Shown piece by piece: positions 30,511-44,396 of a stretch of DNA of 64,000 nt. This DNA comes from Diadema setosum (taxonomy: Eukaryota; Echinodermata; Echinoidea; Diadematoida; Diadematidae), in contig NC_092696.1 in the NCBI RefSeq assembly GCF_964275005.1, forward strand, positions 30,403,006 through 30,467,005, in the 5' to 3' direction. A model generated the notes under the pieces. It did no database searches and was not told the DNA's origin. It was given only the letters and a program-made list of their open reading frames with translations. Each line of letters begins with the position of its first letter. Position 1 is the first letter of the stretch. Position numbers and translations under genes: made by a program.

Positions 30511-31112
30511 ATCGGAATTCGGAACTTGGGTATTTGTTCAAAGTTCACCGTGTCACTGCCGGCAACCATGGATGGCCTGGTGGTACTGTCGCTGTTTGAT
30601 AAGAAATCCTTTTTTCCCTTTATTTCCTTTATGAACTTTTTTAAAACTCTTTCAACATGATCTCAGAGAGAGAAAAGAGACAGTGATTAAAGGGTCTACT
30701 GAAGTGTTTGTTGTCATTGGAGATTTTTCAAACTGCTCGCGCTTGTTGGGACCATGTCACCGATTCCTGAAAGCATGGATACAACCAGCACTACCGACTG
30801 CCGTGGAAAGATTGTGCAGGGTTTTGGCATGACAGAAAGAGAAATTAAACCTCCGAATGACAGGTATAAACTCTAGATAGTCCCGAAGATCAAATTCTTC
30901 GCAGGTATATTTGATAATCACAGGCCTACGAAATGCCGGAAGATATTACGTTTCTGATATATTAAAAAGAAAAAAGACAGAATAAACACGCATGCATTGC
31001 ATTTGAAGAACACAAACACCAAAATGGTCGCAGAAAGAATGATGGGAATAGAATACACACTTTTCAAAACATCTTTCTTCTTGAGGGACAGGTCTGTGGA
31101 TATGTCGCATGT

Positions 31113-31123
31113 GTGTGTTTGTT

Positions 31124-31160
<37 letters not shown>

Positions 31161-31180
31161 AGTGTGTGTGTTTGTGTAAG
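31113..31180. repeat. (GT)n microsatellite
   Basis: GT dinucleotide run. Confidence 0.9.
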
Positions 31181-31289
31181 AGTTGACTTGTTTGTCATTT
31201 ATACTATTAAAAAGTAATCAGTTGAACGTCAATATGTATTGATATTGATATGCATACTGCTATCTCAATGACATCCAGCTGTCTTTGTT

Positions 31290-31291
31290 AA

Positions 31292-31340
<49 letters not shown>

Positions 31341-31342
31341 CC

Positions 31343-31388
<46 letters not shown>
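31290..31388. repeat. (TA)n followed by (TG)n microsatellite
   Basis: About 24 TA units, a 7-bp spacer, then about 21 TG units. Confidence 0.92.
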
Positions 31389-31390
<2 letters not shown>

Positions 31391-31645
31391 ACTGGCGGTT
31401 TGTCTCTCATTAGGTATGCATTGTAGCCCAGTGTATAGTTTTGTATGAGCTAAGATTCCGTGATTATTTTTTCTCCTCCATGATCGCTCTATGACTTTTT
31501 ATAATCAGTATCTCTCGAAATCTTTCCCACTGTCTAACATTTTTTATTCACCGTCATGCTTCGATGTGATAAACTCCCAAGTTTCCAAACTACATGTGTA
31601 ATGTCGCAGGAATGATTTCAATCTGTGTTTTCTTTAAATTCAGGA

Positions 31646-32072
31646 AGAACGAATACATTAGCAGCTGTTTTCATCGAAGTCCTGTATGAAGTTTGGGCAG
31701 CCAGAGACTGCAGCCAAAAGATAGTGATCGAGAAGGATAGAGCCAAACGATTGGGAAAGCTCGATCAAAGAGTGGAAAGGGCTGCTGCAAAATGACAAAA
31801 GGGCTGCGAGATTATGACTGAAAAGGCCGCAGCCAAACTCACCAAAGGGCCGCGGGAAGAGCGCAATGGGGTATAGAATGTAATGCCAACCAAATGCCTA
31901 TAGAATTCGGCATATACAAAATAGGTGGTACAGGTACAATAGATTTCAGACACCCCGACCTGTCCATAGTCAGATCTCCGATCCCATTATTATGTCCGGA
32001 AAGATTGACACTTCCGTGATGGGCACCGTGAATCGATCATTAGCCATTGTCTTTTTCAAAACAAACCTTTTT
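31646..32072 (+). repeat. Dispersed repeat R, copy 1
   Basis: Reverse-complement counterpart of 44397-44832: shares TAGCAGCTGTTT, CATCGAAGTCCT, TGGGCAG.CAGAGACT, AAAGATAGTGAT, AACGATTGGGAAAGCTCGAT, CTATAGAATTCG, ACACCCCGACCTGTCCATAG and TGAATCGATCAT. It lies 150 bp upstream of the BEN-domain gene. No family recognised. Confidence 0.75.
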
Positions 32073-33814
32073 TTGTGATAGCAACGGAGGCTGAAACACT
32101 GCGTGATTGATCAGCTCCGTGGTGCATTTCCAGCAACATGCAGATTAGTTCACAACCTCTATTTAGAAGTATTAAAGCTCAATAAATACCCCCAAAAGTT
32201 TCTTCTCCTCTGTAGTTTAACATACCATCATGGATAGCAACACTTCAAGCGACAGGGGTAGTTTTCACCTGCATCTCGGCGAATCTGAAGCATCTTCGCA
32301 TGATGAGCAGTCGGGACTCGTTGAAGGTCGGGAACGGCATGACTCTGGATTCTGAGCAGAAGAAGACCTTTCCAGTGATGCTGACAGTTTTACAGAAGAT
32401 CGAATCCGAAATCAAGTTGAAGACGAAGAAGATAGCCATCGAGCGACGGTGTCTTCCCTGGCTGCTGAAATCAAAGCACTCCGTCAACAAGTGGACTCAC
32501 AGCAACTACTCCTCAAAGAACTTCACGCTGTAGTCATCGCAAAGTCCCGAACGGCGAAGAGAAACGTCGTAGAAGAATTGCAGGGCAGCAACACGAGCGT
32601 GAGAATCGGTGATGATGAGCTCGGCATTGTGGTCAACAGAAAGAGATTCCTGCATGTGCTTGCAAGAGCAAAGTGCGGTCAATCTCTTCTGTTGAAGACA
32701 ATGAGCTTGGTCTACGAAGGCGATGAGTTGGCCGGTTTCACCTTCAACGGTGATAGCACTGTTCGGCCGTAATCTGGCAGAACTGCGTATCTCCTTTAAC
32801 ACATTACGCCAGAAATCGGGTTTAAAGATTCAATGTTACAGCTTTCTAAACTGAGATACAGTGAGTTGCATTTTTCCTCTTTTCTCGGTCATAATTGGTC
32901 TAAAGAATTTATTTCCAGCAAAAAAATGACAATTTGACCTTTCTAAGTAGTAAAAATTACCAATTTAAAAAACTTACGCAGTTCTGCCAGATTAATCGTC
33001 GCCAAATTTTTGCGATCGTAATCTGGCAGAACTGCGTATCTCTGGTCACGTGCCCGGGTTGATCAGCCAGAACTGCGAAAGTTTTCGGCCATGCGGGGGT
33101 TTTTTCAGGCAGAACTGCGTATCTCTAGGAGTTACGCAGTTCTGCCTGATAAGCACGTGTTTCATCAGGCAGAACTACGTATCTTTTTTCGTGGTCAACC
33201 ACGTGCTTATCAGCCAGAACTACGTACTTAGTATCTCGGTCTATTTTCTGCGGGTTGTCTATCGTATTTTACCATCCATCCCCTCACTATTCAGCGGATG
33301 CAGTGTCAAAACAATGAATATTTTAGATCGAGTACAATTTTGTTGAAATATTTGTATTGTATAAAGTCATTATTATTGATTCACATTCAATTTCATTTTA
33401 TCCATTCATTTGTATGTGGAAAATAACTTGCTTTCCCCAAATGTTGTCAGTCTGTGTTCATGTTTCAGTATTATTTAGCGGCACAAGAAGTACTGCTACA
33501 TCAAAAGCCTGGCTGCTGCTTGGGTTATTGTCGATCTCATGAAGCATTGCATTTGGATTAAGAATATTATTAGACTAGGTTCTAGATGTTAAGCTATATT
33601 GTTCATGAAGACAACAGGTACTACACTGTAGACCGTCTAGACCATAGTCTATTCAGGCCTATAAACGATACACTAGACATCTAGAGACTAGTAGAGCGGT
33701 ACGAATGAATCTGCATACGATAGGCCTACTGATCTCATTATCCTAGTATTCCTACTCTATGCCCAAAGTAAGAGTAAGCCTAGACCCTTTTGGCGGAAGG
33801 CCTAAACTCTATTT

Positions 33815-34575
33815 GTGACCCGCTACAACAAAAAGGTCCTAAAGTCGCGCACTGTCGAAGCCGTGAAAATCGAGTTTGAAGTCAGAGCATTGAAATTGGT
33901 CAAAACTTACGATTTTCTGATTTTGATATATTATTGGAGTCTAACATGTCTTCTATCATCTGTCAAAATTTTGAAGCAAAATGATCAAAGGAAAGATTAA
34001 AAAATAGCGTTTTTCTGAGCCATGTTTTTTGGCGTTTCAACGAAGCAGAAACTGGTTCGAAAATTTGGATTGAGCGCCACAGATAGGTTCCGCCCCTAAC
34101 AACGACCAGAGTGATCTCATTGGTCAGTTTGCTGCTTGCTGCTAACCGAAGCGTGAAGCTCGCACACTGCCCAGTCGACTGGTGCACGTGCGGGCGGGGT
34201 GCGCTATGCTCAGCCGCTTCTCACATCCTGGTCACTGATTGGTTGATGAGGAGACCGCCGATGCTGATGTGCTTGAATGAACTCTTCGGGGGTTGCTAGG
34301 GCTTACCTTCTATTGTCCAGAGGTGAAAACTAACTTGCGTGTCCCTTGATCGTGATTGCGTCGAAAGGAAGACTTTTAGGGCGCTTTTCTCGAAACAGTG
34401 CTTTTCCAGACGTCTCGACATGCTCTCTTTTAAACATCGATATCTCCGCAGCCGATTGTTTTTATAAAATGTGTTATATATCAATTTAAAGCAGAAAGAT
34501 TAGGGGATTATATCATGCAATTTTCAAATAATCGACCTCGCCCGACTTTAGGATCATTTTGTTGTAGCGGGTCAC
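33815..34575. mobile_element. 761-bp MITE nested in the 3.5-kb element
   Basis: Ends GTGACCCGCTACAACAAAA and TTTTGTTGTAGCGGGTCAC are exact inverted copies, continued by a diverged GG(T)CCTAAAGTCG arm. The element is flanked by ATTT on both sides (33811-33814 and 34576-34579). The central 250 bp is GC-richer. Confidence 0.85.
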
Positions 34576-34579
34576 ATTT

Positions 34580-36019
34580 AAACTAAAGAATACTAGGAGC
34601 TAGGCCTGACTAAAAGTTTATTTACAGCTTTATTAGAAAATAAAAAAATAGACCCTAGTTCTCGTTTGTGTGGACTCCTACTGTAGGCCTTATTGTAACT
34701 ACAGTACTAACGTTAGGGTAGTAGTGTTCTAACCATTACTATCTACGCAGGCCTATCAAAAAACGTACGAGAACTCTCGAACTCTGTCTACTCGATAGTC
34801 TAGGTCTATGTAACATCCAGACGTCTATTTTGGGGCGTCATTATAACAGACTAGTAGATCAATAAAAATGAGTTTCTAGATTTTCTAGTCTAGACTCTAG
34901 ATCTCGACTCTATATCCAGGTAGGGGCTAAATCTACAGCTAGACTGTTTATTGGGGATCTAGGCCTAGAAGGTACTAATGTTATAGTAGATCTAAGAACA
35001 ACATAAAGCCTAACCTGCCTATCTATAATGACTATTAACGGTAAGACTATAAAGTCTATAGCCTATAATGTCTAGTAGTACTAGGCCCTAGTAGTAATGT
35101 ATAGAACACGGATCTAAATTTAAGTTTCAGATCTATTTCTAGGGCTAAATGTTTATAATTTAACGTTTAACCTGTAGATTCTAGATTCTTCATATTACAG
35201 ATTTCAAGAATGTCTGGCCGAATCAAATCTAGAAAAATAGAAAACTGAGTAAAGACAGAATAACCGGCGATTCAGCCTAAGTTAAGTAACGGTAGGCCCC
35301 AGTAGCCTAGTAGGCCCCTACTGCACAACTCTACTGAGAGTACCGGTACGGTACCCGTATTAAAAAGTAAACTTTAAAAGTGTTAGTATTGGTCAATTTC
35401 TGACGTCTGTAGGATTGGATCGAAAATGCCATCGTTATGGACGGTATCCCAGATTTCATTAAACTTCTCGAGATCAATCCCATAGATCCAAACCCACTAA
35501 CCGCTTATTACAATGAAAAACAAAATAAGAAGCTATGGTCAATGGATTACAGATATTGTTGTTCGCGTGACCTACGCTACCGCACAGTACATTGATTTCA
35601 CGTACATAAACAATGGACAAGTGCTGCAGCAGTACTAAGTAGGCCTAAAGTTGACTGGAGCGTGATGTCAGACAAGATGCAAACTATAACGTTTGTTAGA
35701 TCTAGAAATGCTCTAGGCTTAAAAAGCATTAGATTGTAGCAAAACTTAATAGTAAGGCATACCGCATATTGACCTGTTTTGAAGCCTGCCAGTCTATGAA
35801 GGGAAAGAAAGTGGCAATTTCCCCCAAGAGTAACGAGGGTTATTGCTTTAGCGCGACTGTCGTCGTGTACAATACACGTAGCCGTACGACGTGTCTAGCT
35901 AGCTAGCTAGGCACTGCTAGCCTGAACGCGCAGCGCGTTCGTCACTACCAAGGTCGCGCACCCGCGTGTTAAGATATACCATGTCCGTGCGGGATGCAGG
36001 AACACCTTGGTCCAAGCGT
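34580..36019. other. Interior of the 3.5-kb element; nothing coding seen
   Basis: Rich in TAGGCCTA, CTAGAT and related words and without long frames. GCTAGCTAGCTAG at 35898-35910 is a short palindrome. Confidence 0.4.
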
Positions 36020-36481
36020 TGTCGTAAGTCGACTTACGCAGTTCTGCCTGATTAACATCGGAAAATTCATTTCGAATCTCGACTTACGCAGTTCTGCCAG
36101 ATTAATCGCCCTCTCTCCTCAGGAATTTTGCCAAAATTACTTTCTAAAAATAACTTTCTGTACCGATTCACAACTTATTTTTTGGCCCACTTGAAAGAGC
36201 ATGAGAAAAAACACACAAAACACTCAAAACCTGAAAATCGACCAAAATCGACTTAGGGAGTTCTGCCAGATTACGGCTGTGTTGACCCACGGCTTTCTGC
36301 CCTCATCGATGACCAGCGTTTCAAGGCTATCAGCAGCCAAGTGGCAAAGTCATATCCCAGATATGACAGTCCTCGCAAAATCCTCATTTTGCGAGACGCG
36401 GTGAACGGCAAATGTCGTAAAATCCGTCGAAAGAGGAGGATTTCAACGGCGTGAATTCGCCCTTCTCTATCGAACCCAAAC

Positions 36482-36497
36482 GGCTCTTTTCAGAGCC
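36482..36497 (+). terminator. Histone mRNA 3' stem-loop
   Basis: GGCTCTTTTCAGAGCC is an exact match to the metazoan histone stem-loop: a 6-bp stem and TTTC loop, preceded by CCAAAC. It is the binding site of SLBP for replication-dependent 3' processing. It lies 28 bp after the BEN-gene stop codon. Confidence 0.93.
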
Positions 36498-36512
36498 ATC
36501 ATAATTGATGAT

Positions 36513-36521
36513 CAAGAAAGA
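36513..36521 (+). promoter_or_regulatory. Histone downstream element (U7 snRNA pairing site)
   Basis: CAAGAAAGA, 15 bp after the stem-loop, is the classical sea-urchin histone downstream element that pairs with U7 snRNA. Spacing and sequence agree with functional histone 3' ends. Confidence 0.88.
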
Positions 36522-37144
36522 ATAATAGTCCTATATGTAACAAGTGCAAATAGAATGCACATAGAACGCTCTCACACATGTCATGTATATAGACGCATCC
36601 CCACGCAAAAACATAATGATTCCATATGTATTTATTGTGTATATATATAGTACATAGTATTATATATGTAATCATGCAACACGCAACTAAAAAACAGCAC
36701 ATACTAAAACAAACAGCACATCACATAAAAAAGATAACAGAGTCTTAATAGTGAGAGAGAGTGAGAAATGGTATATAAGGGTGCATTGTATGCATTCTGC
36801 ATCTGAGTTCAATGTATATTCATTAAATTCTGATTACGAATACTCATATCACTTTGTTGGTATCAAAGGCTCTTAAGATCCACTTCGATGATCAACATTA
36901 ATCCCTTTCAGCGATCTCATCTCTAAAAACTGTGGTCATCTTGTATATCAAGCTGTCTAGCTATGTCTCTACTTTCTATATAACTATAATATATCAATTT
37001 ATCAATCGGTCTTACTTTGTTTACTCATTCACGAGACGTTTGTTATTTGTTGTTTCATACATAGCAATTACGGTATGGAAAAGAGAGTAACAAAAAAAAA
37101 AGTAGTGATAGATAGTGGTAGTAGTTGTTGTAACAGTATAGGCC

Positions 37145-37612
37145 TAAGCAGTATGTGTTGCATAATAATAATAACAATAATAATAATAATAATATATCAA
37201 TTTATAAAGCGCAAAACCTATAGACATATATTCTTCTGCGCTGCAAAAGCTTCTGATGTGCTTGATAATAACGAGCAGTCAAATGAAAAGATGTGTTTTG
37301 AGTCGTGATTTAAAGACTGCTACTATTGGGGATTTCCGGACTTCTAATGGTAGATCATTCCAGAGTTTGGGAGCTGCACAGGCAAATGCTCTGTCTCCCA
37401 ATGTTACTTTTGTTTTATATGTTGGAATTTGTAAAAGGAGAGTGTCCTTAGAACTGCGCAAATTATGAGTATGTCGATGAGATTTAAACCCTAATAATTC
37501 GGATATATAACTGGGGGCTTGACCGATAAGTGGCTTATACACAATCAACAAGATCTTAAACAATATTCGTTTTTAATACGAATCGGAAGCCAGTGTAAAT
37601 CTTTCAGAAGAG
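37145..37612 (-). pseudogene. Older CR1/L2-type LINE, 3' part
   Basis: Minus-strand C-terminal RT sequence: LLKDLHWLPIR, then after a frameshift FKILLIVYKPLIGQAPSYIS and LGDRAFACAAPKLWNDLPLE, ending FKSRLKTHLFI. It is followed by a 3' UTR with GCGCTTTATAAATTGATATA and a (TTA)n tail. It is the second half of the fragment at 40117-40556, split by a younger LINE. Confidence 0.88.
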
Positions 37613-37618
37613 GAGTAA

Positions 37619-40116
37619 TGATAATGATAATGATAATGAATAACATTTATATAGCGCTTAATACTGATGTTTCTAAGCGCATCAAATCGGGGAAAAATAA
37701 TATATATAACGTAAAAACAAAATACAGCATTATGTACATGTTATGATAACGACAGCAACAACAACAACAGCAAAATTAAGGTTGTGTAAACAGATGAGTT
37801 TTCAACAATGACTTAAACCTATCAACATTTTCAGCGTTACGAATATAAAAAGGGAGTTCATTCCAAAGAAGTGGGGAAATAACTGAAAAGGCCCTATCAC
37901 CATAACGTGTACAGGTGCGGGGACCACGTGATAATTGGAGAGCGGAGGAAGAACGAAGAGAACGGGTTGAAGTGGAGGAGCGGAAGGAAATTAAATCTTT
38001 AAGATAAGATGGGGCAAGATTATTACATATCTTGTAAACGATAAGGAGGATTTTAAAAGTGATACGTTGATGGATGGGGAGCCAGTGGAGGGATTGGAAA
38101 ACTGGAGTAATGTGGTCAGATCTTTTTGTAAGGGTCACAAGCCTAGCAGCTGTATTTTGAATTCTTTGAAGTGGTGCAGTACTTGAAGCAGGGAGACCAA
38201 CAAGAAGGGAATTGCAGTAGTCAAGATGAGAGGAAACAAATGCGTGAATGAGACGTTCCGTGGAAGACTGATCCAATAATTTACGTATTTTACCAATTTT
38301 ACAAATACCCCAAGCAGCAGAACGACATGAATTCTTAATATGTTGTTGAAAGTTCAGATGCTTATCTACAATAACTCCGAGATCTCTGACGGACTGAGAG
38401 ATGGGGATAGTACTATCTTCAAAGGAAAATTCTGTTAGAGAGCTACCCTGCCTGAACTGAGAATGAACATATAAAAATTCCGATTTAACACAATTCAATT
38501 TCAAATAATTATCGTGAGACCATTGCTTGATATCATCAACGCATCTACTAAGTTTGCAGAGTGCTTCGACTTGGGTATTTGGTTGTATGATTATGTAGAT
38601 TTGAGTATCGTCGGCATACATAACATGTAAAATATCGTTATGAGAGTTGATTACTGAAGACAGAGGGGCTGTGTATAGAAGAAATAGTAAAGGACCAACC
38701 ACAGACCCCTGGGGGACACCATGTCTAAGAGGGAACGACTGAGAAAATGCACCGTTCACAGTAACCATCTGGTGGCGGTCGTGTAAGTAAGATGCAATCC
38801 ATCTCAAGACTGTTCCCGTTAGACCAAAATTAGTCTCCAATCTGTTAAGGAGAATTTCATGATTGATAGTATCAAACGCAGCAGAATAATCTAAAAGCAG
38901 AAGAGCAACTTCATGGCCTTTGTCTACTGCTAAGAGGAGGTCATTGAGTACCTTCAATAAGGCGGTTTCGGTGGAGTGGAAGTGCCTGTAGGCAGACTGA
39001 TTACTAGGAAACAACTGGTGTTCATCAAGATGATCTCTGAGTTGGCGAGCAACCACTTTCTCAAGAACTTTACCAAGAAAAGACAGATTAGCAATGGGGC
39101 GAACATTATTCAAATCATTACGGTCTAAGCTGGGTTTCTTTAGAAATTGCAATATGAGCGACCTTTTGAAGTGCATAGGAACTACGCCTGATGACAACGA
39201 GAGATTCAGAATGTGAGTTATTGCAGGAAGAAATTCATCTAGACACTCTTTTAGTAGCCATGTGGGGAGAGGATCAAGAGAACAAGACTTGGACGGAAGA
39301 GAATTGATGAGACGTTTCATTTGTGACTCAGTGATTAAACTAAACTCAGAAAATACACACTCAGTGTTTATATTTATGCGAGAGGAATTAGAGAGAGAGA
39401 TTTCAGGAGACACCGGGAATGAGGATGCAATGGTACTAATCTTGTTGTCGAAAAACTCAGCAAACTGATTGGCAAGTGCAGGATTTGAAGTATGGTCAGG
39501 AAGAGAAGAATCTGGATGTGCAATTGTGAGTCTTTTGATGATGTTGAAAAGTTGTTCGGTGTCTGCAGCAGCAATCTCCTCTCTTAGGTGCCTTGACTTG
39601 GCGTCGGCAAGGTGGCTGTAGTAGGACTCACACTCTTGCCGATACAGCAGCTCTCTGTCAATGCAAAGACCAGACTTGATCATGCGACGCTCTGCACGGC
39701 GTCTACGCTTCTTAACCTCCTTCACTTCTGTCGTGTACCAGGGATTATTTGGCCACACTGTTACAGATCTAGTCTTGAGCGGAGCGTACTTATCAAGAAG
39801 TCTTGTTACATGAGAGTTGAGCAGCAGGACAGCCTCGGAGGGACACGCTGGCTCTCTGATCTGGAAAAGTGATACAGCAATGTCATTTTTAAAGGAGCAG
39901 AGGTCCATAGACCGTAGATTTCTGGAGGTAGTCTGCTTCTTGGGGTTCACTGGGCCTTTGAGGTTGAGAGTGGTGATGATGGCGGAGTGGTCAGAGGGCA
40001 GAAATGTGACAAGATTAACATTCGATACAATGTTGTCAACTTTTCTGCTTAGAACTAGGTTTAATGTGTGTCCAGCTTTATGAGTTGCCTCTTTAACATG
40101 CTGTTGAAATCCTAGA
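37619..40116 (-). mobile_element. CR1/L2-type LINE, 5'-truncated, nested insertion
   Basis: Flanked by an exact GAGTAA duplication (37613-37618 and 40117-40122). It starts within the endonuclease C-terminus and ends in a (CATTAT)n tail at 37619-37642. The ORF is open throughout, so the insertion is comparatively young. It split an older LINE of the same broad group. Confidence 0.92.
37776..40116 (-). pseudogene. LINE ORF2 fragment: endonuclease end plus reverse transcriptase
   Basis: The first ATG is at 39950, but the frame is open back to the truncation at 40116 and includes the endonuclease end (HTLNLVLSR, LPSDHSAIITTLNL). RT motifs: NVRPIANLSFLGKVLEKVV, NQSAYRHFHSTETAL, LLLLDYSAAFDTINHEIL (motif A), GVPQGSVVGPLLFLLYTAP (motif B), MYADDTQIY (motif C). 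The C-terminus has the CR1/L2 signature VFQSLHWLPIHQRI and GDRAFSVISPLLWNELP, ending LLKTHLF. No stop or frameshift occurs over more than 770 codons. It lacks ORF1 and most of the endonuclease, so it cannot move by itself. Confidence 0.93.
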
Positions 40117-40556
40117 GAGTAACCCTTGAAAACCTAGGTTTGTTACAAATAAGCCTTGCACAGGAGTTTTGGACTCGCTGCAGGCTCCCAACTTCAGAAT
40201 CAGATAGTCCATATAATAACCCATTACAATAATCCATTTTACTAAGAATACATGCTTGGACAATCATTTTCATACTGTTCTTATCAAAATATTTCCTGAT
40301 ACGTCTAAGGTTATAAATCATATGGTATGATGATTTACACACATTTGTGATGTGTGTTTCCCTGTTCAGATGCGTGTCAAAACACACTCTAAGATTCCTA
40401 ACAATGGAAGATGACTTTATGACAGAACTTCTAACCCATATCCCATCAAAAGAAAGTTTGGATATTTGCTTTGATGTGCCAATCAATGACAGTTCAGTCT
40501 TACTGTCATTTAGCATGAGTTTGTTTAGCAGCATCCATGATCACGTACATAATTGA
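40117..40556 (-). pseudogene. Older CR1/L2-type LINE, RT thumb fragment
   Basis: Minus strand: MLNDSKTELSLIGTSKQ, LSFDGIWV, NLRVCFDTHLNRETHI and KMDYCNGLLYGLSDSEVG, ending CARLICNKPRFSRVT, after which the younger LINE begins and the sequence continues at 37612. The palm region is missing upstream. Confidence 0.88.
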
Positions 40557-41690
40557 CACAATATATTCCATGTGAGTGACGCTTTGCTGCTGAGCATGTG
40601 CGTCAGGTGTGAACGACAAATACATTATGTGTGTCATCTGCGTAGCAGCGACAGGATACACCAGGAAACCTAAAGTACAAAGTAGTCGTGAAGTAGGGAT
40701 GAGAACATGTATTGAAATTTGTTGGTGTAAATGACACAGAGAAAGGTGAATCGCAGCTATGGGGAATATCTTTTACGCGGTTCCTTTCCATTGATTTTCT
40801 TTGAAAGTAAGAACATGCATACAATTATAGTTCCCACCAATGCGCATGAATTTTAATTGAGAAAGAATAGCTAACTAGTTTATGCGAGACTCAACAGGGG
40901 TCGAATAAGCTAATGATATCCACTCTAACCTCGTCCACACAAACAAACAAACAAACATACACTGACGAGAATACACACAGAGACAAAATCCTGCCTGTAA
41001 TTGAAAACAAAAGAAAAATCCGCCTTGCTCTGTACACTGAAAGACGAAAAGTACTAAAACATGGATGTAGAGGTAGCACTTGTAAATCATGGTACAAATT
41101 GAAGTAGGCCTTCGAGTGGTATTATGTATTACATGTAAAGGTATTACAATCTTTCAGCTTAATTGTTATTTCTCCTGAGTTGCTGAAGCACCGTATGATT
41201 ACATACTGTCTTCATTTGTAATATCCCTAATTCATTTTCACGAAGTCATGATTGGCACGACGTACAGCTATTAAAATTAGTATGAAAAGATTGTATTAGA
41301 AGCCGTGCAGTGTGACATGCTCTTCCTAAGCCGTTTTGCTCACGCCATCATGCGTGAACGCCTTCTCTGCTGTTTTATATTGAAAACAGATTGAAAGTAG
41401 CATTTTATCACCTTAATTGTTACGCTAATTTCCACCACCATGGATCTAAATGACGAGATGTGATATATTCAGTTCTACCAAAATCGATTTTTTTCTCTCT
41501 CTCTCTCTCCCTCTCGTCACTGTAATGATGTAATGACGAGTTCTACCAAAAAGTTGCGTGAGTGGCAATCTTGATGCTTTCAATACATTGACACTTTTGT
41601 ACCCAATCGCTTGCCATGGCGTATTGTTCCGTGTCGAGACAAAAGGTATTGATGGAAGATTACGTGTTGTTGCTGATTTGAAAGGCGTTG
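40557..41690. other. No gene seen
   Basis: Unique-looking AT-rich sequence. It includes a (CT)n run at 41494-41511 and a CAAACAAACAAAC run at 40940. Confidence 0.4.
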
Positions 41691-41701
41691 ATCAGCTATA
41701 G

Positions 41702-42764
41702 ATAGTCCATGGGCCAAGACCCGAAAAATGGGTTGTTGGTACCATCTGAGGTGGCACAACCTTTTTGGTGTCATTTTGTTTGTCGGGCATAGATATGCTT
41801 ATCAAGCTATGATAGCATTTCCAAATGAGTAGCTTAGTCATAATAAATGAATTTTTAACCAATTTGGTCTCGTATTTATATCCCTATACTTCTGAATCGA
41901 AACTAAACCGCTATACAAAGAAGAGCACTGCCTTCTGTATGTCCACAGGTGTTCTGTTGTAAACGCGGTGCGCTTAGTCTTTATTCAAGGCAGCGAAGGG
42001 AATATCCAAAGGGTTATGATGTCCACAGCTGCCACGCGGTGCGCTTAGCTCTTTATCATATCTAAAGTTCCTCATAAAAGGGATTATCTATACTGTTTTT
42101 ATACCATCCTATCAACAAATACATCAGTTTTAAACAAAAATCACTCTGTTCATTTACAATGGTATTTATTATAATGTATTGTAGTGTACCGGTACATTGT
42201 TTTTGCATTATCTTTCATTGTTGGAGGGAAATAAAGCACCATTGGCTTGGTATCAGCGTTTTCACCGTAGCGTTTTCGCCGGAAAATGATAAATAATTGA
42301 AAGATACGGTAAAATTCACGAGGAATCGCTTTTATTGTCGTTGTTGTTTTTAGATAAAAGGATTTACACTGTATCGTGTGCTTTGGACATTCCCTTCGCC
42401 GTCTAGAATAAAGACTAAGCGCTGTGGACATCATAACCTTTGGATATTCCCTTCGCTGCTTTGAATAAAGACTAAGCGCACCGCGTTTACAACATACACC
42501 TGTGAACATACCATAGAGCTGCATTTTACAGCTCTATGGAACATACAGAAGACAGTGCTCTTTATGGCGGTTAGTTTCGATTCAGAAGTATAGGGATATA
42601 ACAGCGAGACCGAATTGGTTAAACATTCATTTACTATGACTAAGCTACTCATTTGGAAATGCTATCATAGCTTGATAAGCATATCTATGCCCGACAAACA
42701 AAATGACACCGAAAAGGTTTTGCCACCTCAGATGGTACCAATATCCGGCCTGGCCCATGGACTA
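41702..42764. repeat. Large inverted duplication (arms about 330 bp, spacer about 400 bp)
   Basis: The left arm 41702-42030 (TAGTCCATGGGCC through GTTATGATGTCCACAG) returns reversed at 42425-42764. Internal landmarks in both arms include TAGCTTAGTCATA, CCAATTTGGTCTCG, ATCCCTATACTTCTGAATCG, GCGGTGCGCTTAGTC and GGGAATATCCAAA. A third, single arm lies at 47215-47463. The right arm carries an extra hairpin CATAGAGCTG...CAGCTCTATGG at 42511-42540. Confidence 0.85.
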
Positions 42765-42768
42765 ATAA

Positions 42769-43080
42769 GGAAGTTTTCGCTACACGAAGGACAGACCGAA
42801 AGTACGCGGAAGCAATCAACTGTGAAAGTACCCGTACTCGGACTCCCGTCACCATAGCAGTTTCGCTTTCCTGTACAGGACGAGGCGTGGGGACAAGATC
42901 GCTGATTGGCTGGCTGGCTGACTGGCTCACTCATGCCCAGCGTCGGGACCGAACGCTATTTTGGCTGAATCTCGCGCACCAGTGTTCCCCACGGGACGTT
43001 TCTCGGATTTGATCATGCGCAGATGCAAATTTGCACATGGTATGCTCAAATCCCGGCCGCGTCGTGCTTGCGAAAACTCC
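42769..43080. mobile_element. TTAA-type MITE, copy 1
   Basis: Ends GGAAGTTTTCGC and GCGAAAACTCC; inverted homologue of 51052-51374. It inserted next to the right arm of the inverted duplication. Flanks are degenerate (ATAA and CTAT). A GGCTGGCTGGCTGACTGGCT run lies inside. Confidence 0.8.
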
Positions 43081-44396
43081 CTATTGAATAGGCGGCACGT
43101 ATCTTTGCAAAGTTTAATAGCATAGTTAGAAATCAGTAGCAGATAATGAACTGAAGGGTACGTCTTTTTCAAAGCCAGGAGAAAGGGCTTCAAGGAAAAA
43201 ATTGTCTGTATTGTGGACATGTTTCTCTGAGATCAACGACGTGCCCATAATGAACTACACAACTTCGCCAAACAAGAGAAATTACGAAAGCTGGATGTCA
43301 ATATATGGTTGGTTTTCAGTTGAGTTCAAAACAAATGAAAAATAATATGCATAGGGCCTACCATGGGCAGTATCTTCTAATGCGTCATCACTTTTTAAAC
43401 GTTGAGAAATATGTCACAAAGGAAGTACAATGTACAAGTCAAGACGAAAATGTGGATTTGTAGCAAAATCTATCCTAAGTATTCACAGGATTAAAAAAAA
43501 AAATGAAATGAAGGAATGTCAGGACAATACAGAAACTTTAACGAATGCAAGTTAACATGAAACAAATTATACTTCGAGAGTGTAACGATATATCAAAGAA
43601 TCACAAGCAATGAACACGTCTTAACGATTATCTGGTCACTGAAATACACCCCACATAATCACACAATCTGACAAGGGCAGACTAGGTTGTATTTGGCCTG
43701 GGGAAGGGAATATGATAAAAGTGTAGTTTTTCTAATTCCCTCCCTCTCTCTCTCTCTCTCTCTCTATCTATCTCTCTCTCTCTCTTGTCATGGCATTCAC
43801 GGTATTTTATGTTCATGAAACAATTGTTCTGTCCTGCATTATCACCTCAAAGATTTGCTGCGTCGAATACCCCCCCCCCCCCCCCCCCATGCCGGGAGAA
43901 AGGACAGGAGACTTCGCATCTGCAGCCCAGGGCTGGGTGTATAATAATGTTATCGTACAAAGGAAGTTACGGAGAGTGCATAAATGAGCTAGGTGAATAG
44001 TACCTTTGTTTTGTTTTTTGTTTTGTTTTGTTTTTTGTTTTTTTAAGATTGTAGTGTGTGTTCTTACGCCTTTGGTTTTGTTTTGTCTGGTCTTTGGTAA
44101 TATTTGTTGTTTCCATTGAAGCCTATTTTTTTTTTCTTTTTATTTTTTCCCCCTCGTTTTTCTGTGTATACGATTCTAGAACTATTGGTGTTAACGTGTA
44201 TTAGAGACTATAGTCCAAAAAAGGATCAGACGCCTGGTAGTTTTACTATCATTGAATGCTATCAAACTTTTGTTTTGTGATTTCAAAAATGTATTTGTCA
44301 TATACCCTGTGAAAAAGCACGATGTTCTTCGATCTGATCAATAAAATCCAGAAATACAAAAAAAAAATAAAAGTGTAAAAGTAAAGTAAAGGATAA
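43081..44396. other. No gene; homopolymers
   Basis: (CT)n at 43741-43786, a run of about 20 C at 43870-43888, and T-rich tracts at 44010-44150. Confidence 0.5.

Follow-up and report, generated by a model that had tools for sequence, protein, structure and literature searches.

Can a gene that does not encode a histone end in the way a replication-dependent histone gene does? The question is raised by a stretch of the Diadema setosum genome (NC_092696.1, 30,403,006-30,467,005), hereafter the window (64 kb; 64,000 nucleotides, nt; positions without a prefix are window positions), in which an interrupted open reading frame (ORF) for a BEN-like protein is followed by a histone-type stem-loop and a downstream element of the U7 type. 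In animals, the complete histone-type mRNA end signal has been described as reserved for histone mRNAs (PMC2642717). Here we find that the BEN-like ORF of the window is a dead copy of an intronless, multi-copy gene. The signals, their spacing and conservation, the presence of intact single-frame relatives and the linkage of two genes make it probable that this gene, a distant lineage encoding 332 amino acids (aa) and a second, transposase-like gene (gene 2) use histone-type 3' processing. The genome searched comprises 912.7 Mb; its chromosomes are labelled C1, C2 and so on, and the loci that were read L001 and so on.

The BEN-like gene and its 3' end

The ORF lies on the plus strand in two parts. 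Its 5' part (32230..32763), delimited from the sequence, the list of ORFs and the sibling copies, starts with an ATG at 32230 and has an in-frame TGA at 32353-32355. Its 3' part (36280..36454), delimited by translation and sibling matches, encodes the second half of the domain (...AVNGKCRK...) and ends with a TGA at 36452-36454. The frame is interrupted twice, by the early stop and by a 3.5-kb element at 32764-36275, and the copy is thus broken, as the initial annotation of this DNA had stated.

The stem-loop GGCTCTTTTCAGAGCC (36482..36497, plus strand), found by pattern match and by Rfam RF00032, is separated from the stop by 27 nt; the annotation had placed the stop correctly at 36454 and given the gap as 28 bp. 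It has the features expected of a histone-type 3' end, namely a 6-bp stem, a 4-base loop, the consensus sequence and a position shortly past the stop codon. It is the sole match at ≤2 mismatches in the window, and none of 100 shuffles contained one. The Rfam Histone3 match (36477-36523, 34.7 bits against a cut-off of 34, E 2.5e-6) is likewise the only one in the window to reach the gathering score, which bears out the annotated exact stem-loop behind the BEN-like stop.

The U7-type histone downstream element CAAGAAAGA (36513..36521, plus strand) lies 15 nt 3' of the stem-loop, just where it had been annotated. This spacer is 10 nt long in six siblings, in the 332-aa gene and in gene 2. It has the same length at each of the five stem-loop sites in L038, a stretch of the C3 histone array with H2B, H3, H2A, H1 and H4 frames, where the element has the form C[AC]AGAAAGA. 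Therefore, the window copy has a 5-nt insertion in its spacer.

A translated genome search with a 138-aa piece gave 14 matches at 12 loci, the window copy included; we refer to these loci as the window family. The exact 16-mer stem-loop is present in 10 of the 12, L019 and L021 being altered within it, and CAAGAAAGA in 11, L016 being truncated at that place. In the siblings the stem-loop comes after the same stop codon within the same sequence, and Rfam Histone3 matches were obtained in nine of the 11 sibling loci (L029 and L030 were missed) versus none of four flank pieces. The spacer measures 10 nt in L010, L011, L013, L014, L015 and L018, 11 nt in L012, L019 and L021, and 19 nt (lengthened by 9) in L017. 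In two loci, L010 and L011, a 234-aa frame runs unbroken from ATG to stop, and both have the stem-loop and CAAGAAAGA. The 234-aa gene is located at C3:6.11 and 31.74 Mb.

The family protein is best called BEN-like. A profile of eight C-terminal domains compared with the PDB gave six matches at E ≤10, all of them BEN proteins (BEND6, Bsg25A, BEND3 and three of BANP), the best at E 0.0069 and the others at 0.66-1.5, so that only one lies below 0.01. The family profile was aligned by hhalign to the BEN-like locus L058 at 96.8%, and L058 itself falls 1.1 bits short of the Pfam BEN cut-off (E 1.7e-4) and matches BEND3 at E 4.4e-4. The likeness to BEND3, BEND6, BANP and Bsg25A resides in a C-terminal domain of about 110 residues, whereas the family protein is too divergent for the Pfam cut-off. 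The annotated BEN identity thus stands at the level of the family profile and fails as a Pfam call, both for the window copy and for an intact sibling. No histone families were among the Pfam matches of these proteins. Both identities used here, BEN and transposase, are drawn from profile and motif evidence below Pfam cut-offs. To our knowledge, no BEN gene with a histone-type 3' end has been described.

Distant relatives, a linked gene and their dispersal

With the C-terminal 114 aa as query, 30 matches at E ≤10 were obtained in a relaxed search, and 12 loci outside the window family were read. Three of these, L053 (C6), L054 (C3, at 15.836 Mb) and L055 (C5), contain intact 332-aa frames with a stem-loop 21 nt past the stop, followed by ACCACAAAGC and CAAGAAAGAATA, and all three 3' ends are matched by Rfam. 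The 332-aa lineage shares 28% identity with the window family (E 0.105 in one direction, 8.4e-5 in the reverse direction). In a tree of 11 domains, L010 groups with L047 and L049 (99/98) and L054 stands elsewhere, with long branches and unsure placement for L010 and L058. As the signal is found on two BEN-like branches, it was either gained twice or lost several times.

Gene 2 is located 4.4-4.9 kb downstream of the 332-aa gene on C3, C5 and C6. In L059 a stem-loop lies 31 nt past the gene-2 stop, and the signal is at the matching place in the C5 and C6 copies; on C5 the frame is open throughout its 582 codons. The motifs SADNK, VDGGPD and NPVEHLW are D-D-E-like and shared in form with L065 on C14, in a comparison of just two sequences (L059 and L065, 33% identity) read by eye; the best Pfam match of L065 is DDE_Tnp_ISAZ013 (E 0.017, under the cut-off). 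These motifs make gene 2 resemble DDE-type DNA transposases. It differs from them in scoring above the cut-off for no known transposase family, in a C-terminus that looks C2H2-like by eye, in its BEN-like partner and in its histone-type 3' end.

On C1, C2 and C19, BEN-like paralogues also have relatives of gene 2 at a distance of about 7-13 kb; together with the stem-loop lineage, the pair is therefore linked in four lineages. In these three pairs an intron-like break splits gene 2 near query residue 85. The BEN-like gene is itself in separate parts on C2 and C19, not on C1; the stem-loop lineage is continuous. The bare stem-loop pattern GGYYCTTTTCAGRRCC does not occur near the C1 and C2 pairs among the 100 matches listed, which take in both C1 and C2, and the composite patterns described below have no site on C19. 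Pieces of the two genes were seen elsewhere. At C3:19669808-19675989, tandem parts of the 332-aa BEN-like gene are directly followed by gene-2 pieces; the L048 BEN-like frame overlaps a remnant of the gene-2 C-terminus on the opposite strand; and C22:14923293-14933673 holds eight matches to the C-terminal half of gene 2, mostly about 1.1 kb apart and each with at least one stop.

The intact loci L053-L055, like L010 and L011, share the 3' end of the window copy, which supports the predicted parent gene of like architecture. The frames are single and open (234 aa, 332 aa and, for gene 2 on C5, 582 codons), in agreement with the intronless frame of the initial annotation. That annotation had noted neither that the window copy lies in a dispersed repeat nor that this 3' end also occurs in a transposase-like gene.

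Most window-family copies sit in this repeat of about 13 kb, with long blocks at about 90-98.5% identity to L023; L029 and L032 share only pieces with L023. The window copy of the unit (30840..43725, plus strand) matches L023:3268-8859 and siblings by blastn, mostly in blocks of 90-96% identity, and is broken up by later insertions. A right edge common to both copies that were extended (L035:3388 and L037:3323) sets the unit at about 13 kb, and its left edge falls in a microsatellite. R1, the 574 nt upstream of the gene on its promoter side (31638..32210 in the window, plus strand; search with L023:3866-4439 and alignment of 5' regions), is itself repeated at at least 40 genome places; of 69 candidates, 40 were scored, and every one of these matched. 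Its copies cluster, in either orientation, near copies of the gene. Neither the window nor the examined loci of the 13-kb unit contained a match to gene 2. Retrocopying of a mature histone-type mRNA was ruled out for the window family, as the copies share long flanks and the element past the expected cleavage point.

Two insertions lie within the window copy of the unit. Sibling copies are alignable to 32763 and then again from 36280, and the intervening 3.5-kb element (32764..36275, strand not assigned; sibling alignment and end sequences) has inverted ends of the form C[GA]GCCGTAATCTGGCAGAACT and TGTT on both sides (32760-32763 and 36276-36279); it is therefore a later insertion. Its inverted ends read CRGCCGTAATCTGGCAGAACT, and its part 33814-34576 recurs in L029. 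The second insertion (37620..40113, minus strand), seen as a gap in sibling alignments, carries a 785-aa minus-strand frame with a reverse transcriptase domain (Pfam RVT_1, E 4.6e-33).

How these genes spread bears on what they are. We tentatively propose, as a reading for which the sequences leave appreciable room, that the transposase-like and BEN-like genes belong to a family of eukaryotic DNA transposons and are expressed through the histone mRNA 3' pathway, which would give S-phase proteins from non-polyadenylated mRNAs. It is also possible, if rather doubtful, that the 3' ends are real and belong to ordinary host genes spread by segmental duplication. Low copy number and clustering on few chromosomes would fit such duplication, as would the lack of any shown inverted ends or target-site duplications for the 13-kb unit in the two copies extended. 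It accounts less well for the near-identical units on C3, C5 and C6, for the same right edge in both extended 13-kb copies, and for the linkage to a gene that has D-D-E motifs and a relative weakly matching a transposase family.

Conservation and specificity of the signal

Conservation was assessed from cell counts in the copy alignment, with columns of fewer than eight rows and all insertions excluded. Cells differing from the majority number 3/440 in the 38-nt signal, 71/1584 in the 3' flank, 120/7010 in the coding part and 35/1579 in the 5' flank. By Fisher's test the 3' flank is less well conserved than the signal (P 4e-5) and than the coding part (P 6e-10), values that are too small because the copies are related.

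Several observations weigh against the reading of a BEN-like family and a gene 2 with working histone-type 3' ends. Conservation of the signal does not significantly exceed that of the coding part (Fisher P 0.12), nor does that of the coding part exceed that of the 5' flank (Fisher P 0.17). For copy pairs with more than 60 codons, the ratio of nonsynonymous to synonymous rates (dN/dS) ranges from 0.11 (L010-L014) to 2.43 (L012-L016), with 0.28-1.80 for the window copy, and the 332-aa copies are too little diverged for dN/dS to be judged. A frame check of the 11 oriented siblings and the window found 10 of the 12 window-family loci broken; spacer insertions are present in L012, L017, L019, L021 and the window copy; and the C3 copy of gene 2 has an in-frame stop and the C6 copy one TAG. 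Nine BEN-like loci (L047-L052 and L056-L058, with short frames or fragments in L048, L049 and L052) have no stem-loop, so the signal is not family-wide. Pfam BEN (PF10523) exceeded its cut-off in no scanned protein, the window copy and intact sibling included. A search of the genome for the U7 small nuclear RNA gave no match above the Rfam cut-off, sub-cut-off matches being uninformative given that a control gave such matches in 12 of 14 genomes of bacteria and archaea, and a U7 sequence pattern had 0 matches in this genome. Finally, AATAAA or ATTAAA occurs in L053-L055 about 280 nt past the stop, and in L010 and the window about 300 nt past CAAGAAAGA.

The initial annotation had held that intact paralogues with ordinary poly(A) ends would speak against it. 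The intact copies L010, L011 and L053-L055 all carry the stem-loop; the nine loci lacking it, and the hexamers that lie downstream of the intact copies too, tell the other way. With hexamers about 280-306 nt downstream in L010, L011 and L053-L055, there is room for a second, poly(A) route. Taken together, dN/dS and the cell counts fit some past constraint and a dead window copy, without strong proof of coding constraint.

These observations lend some substance to the idea that a histone 3' end was joined to ancestral copies and merely carried along, the transcripts being polyadenylated or not made. The poly(A) hexamers within about 300 nt, the 10 broken loci of 12 and the P of 0.12 between signal and coding part are all compatible with such a passenger. 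Yet the signal has changed less than the 3' flank, it stands at histone-like distances in gene 2 as well as in two distinct BEN-like branches, and it accompanies single-frame genes, whereas related pairs without it look split. We therefore consider this explanation improbable.

Whether the motif could instead be a palindromic repeat that mimics a stem-loop depends on how specific the signal is in this genome. The bare pattern GGYYCTTTTCAGRRCC has 544 genome matches, with 0 and 4 for the reversed control. The first eight matches with context comprise one histone gene and seven sites with no early-histone match within 1.5 kb. These seven (L001, L002, L003 and L005-L008) are exact stem-loop-like palindromes, and two repeat families (GGTCCTTTTCAGGACC and GGCCCTTTTCAGGGCC) account for six of them. 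L004 is a dispersed H2B with SPKK-like repeats, which together with the histone arrays is indicative of an echinoid. The bare-pattern matches listed include close pairs in opposite orientation.

The picture is different for two strict composite patterns that join stem-loop and CAAGAAAGA with a fixed 10-nt spacer, without TT at spacer positions 7-8 (early H3/H4 spacer). They have 22 sites genome-wide (13 and 9 from the two patterns) and 0 when reversed; the bare palindrome is thus a weak marker and the stem-loop plus CAAGAAAGA a strong one. Fifteen of the 22 sites are at the genes described here: six in the window family, three at the 332-aa gene, three at gene 2 (C3, C5 and C6) and three in a tandem on C15. 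One site of that tandem was read (L060) and is a truncated gene 2; the two others are pattern matches next to known matches, as are the 3' ends of gene 2 on C5 and C6. Two further sites are histone genes (L061, H2A; L062, H3), and one (L063, C15:16727474), with CAAGAAAGA at 10 nt, lies about 105 nt past the frames of a broken Tc1-like transposase (Pfam DDE_3, E 1.6e-11). The four remaining sites are pattern matches at C9:18855287, C8:28429847, C9:23006796 and C10:4695494. A chance palindrome was ruled out by the 100 shuffles and the reversed composite patterns.

Repeat mimicry, which the seven of eight bare-pattern matches and the four reversed ones might suggest, is thus very improbable: the 84 bases past those repeat palindromes hold no CAAGAAAGA at 10 nt, in contrast to the BEN-like and gene-2 sites, which have it at histone spacing. 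Least likely of all, and practically dismissed, is the histone gene remnant adjoining a BEN fragment that the initial annotation had itself raised, as siblings keep the same order of stop and stem-loop in the same sequence, early-histone proteins had no match in the window, L010 or L023 (tblastn, E 0.01), and the signal recurs in the intact paralogues L053-L055 and in a second gene.

Proposed mechanism and significance

The closest known system we take to be the replication-dependent early histone genes of sea urchins. As in those genes, the BEN-like gene and gene 2 are intronless and have, shortly after the stop, a stem-loop and a C[AC]AGAAAGA-type element with a 10-nt spacer. They differ in that their proteins are not histones and in that they are dispersed, in repeats or beside a transposase-like gene, outside the histone array.

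From these likenesses we infer processing, timing, DNA binding and transposase activity in the following form. A multi-copy intronless gene would encode a coiled-coil-like and BEN-like protein, and its mRNA would end like a replication-dependent histone mRNA. Cleavage would occur a few bases past the stem-loop, guided by SLBP and by the U7 small nuclear ribonucleoprotein on CAAGAAAGA, and would leave no poly(A) tail. Expression would presumably fall in S phase and early cleavage, when the histone-processing machinery is abundant. A mobile-element-like gene pair, or amplified host genes, has probably come to use histone-type 3' processing in this way. Production of a BEN-like chromatin protein and of a transposase-like protein would then be coupled to S phase and to the rapid early embryonic cycles.

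In the literature, as covered by titles and abstract openings, we found no non-histone gene with a histone stem-loop; most subscription journals are outside that coverage, which makes this weak evidence of absence. Elba2, a Drosophila BEN protein, is able to replace linker histone H1 in vivo (PMC5043383). It offers a suggestive parallel only to BEN-like genes with histone-type ends.

Non-histone genes that are intact and bear the full signal would break the histone-only rule and would be natural test substrates for SLBP/U7 processing. They would also show a means by which selfish or chromatin genes could time their expression in embryos to DNA replication. Such genes may be overlooked in poly(A)-selected RNA data. 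If the proposed reading is true, this family would represent a mobile element that took over replication-coupled histone expression.

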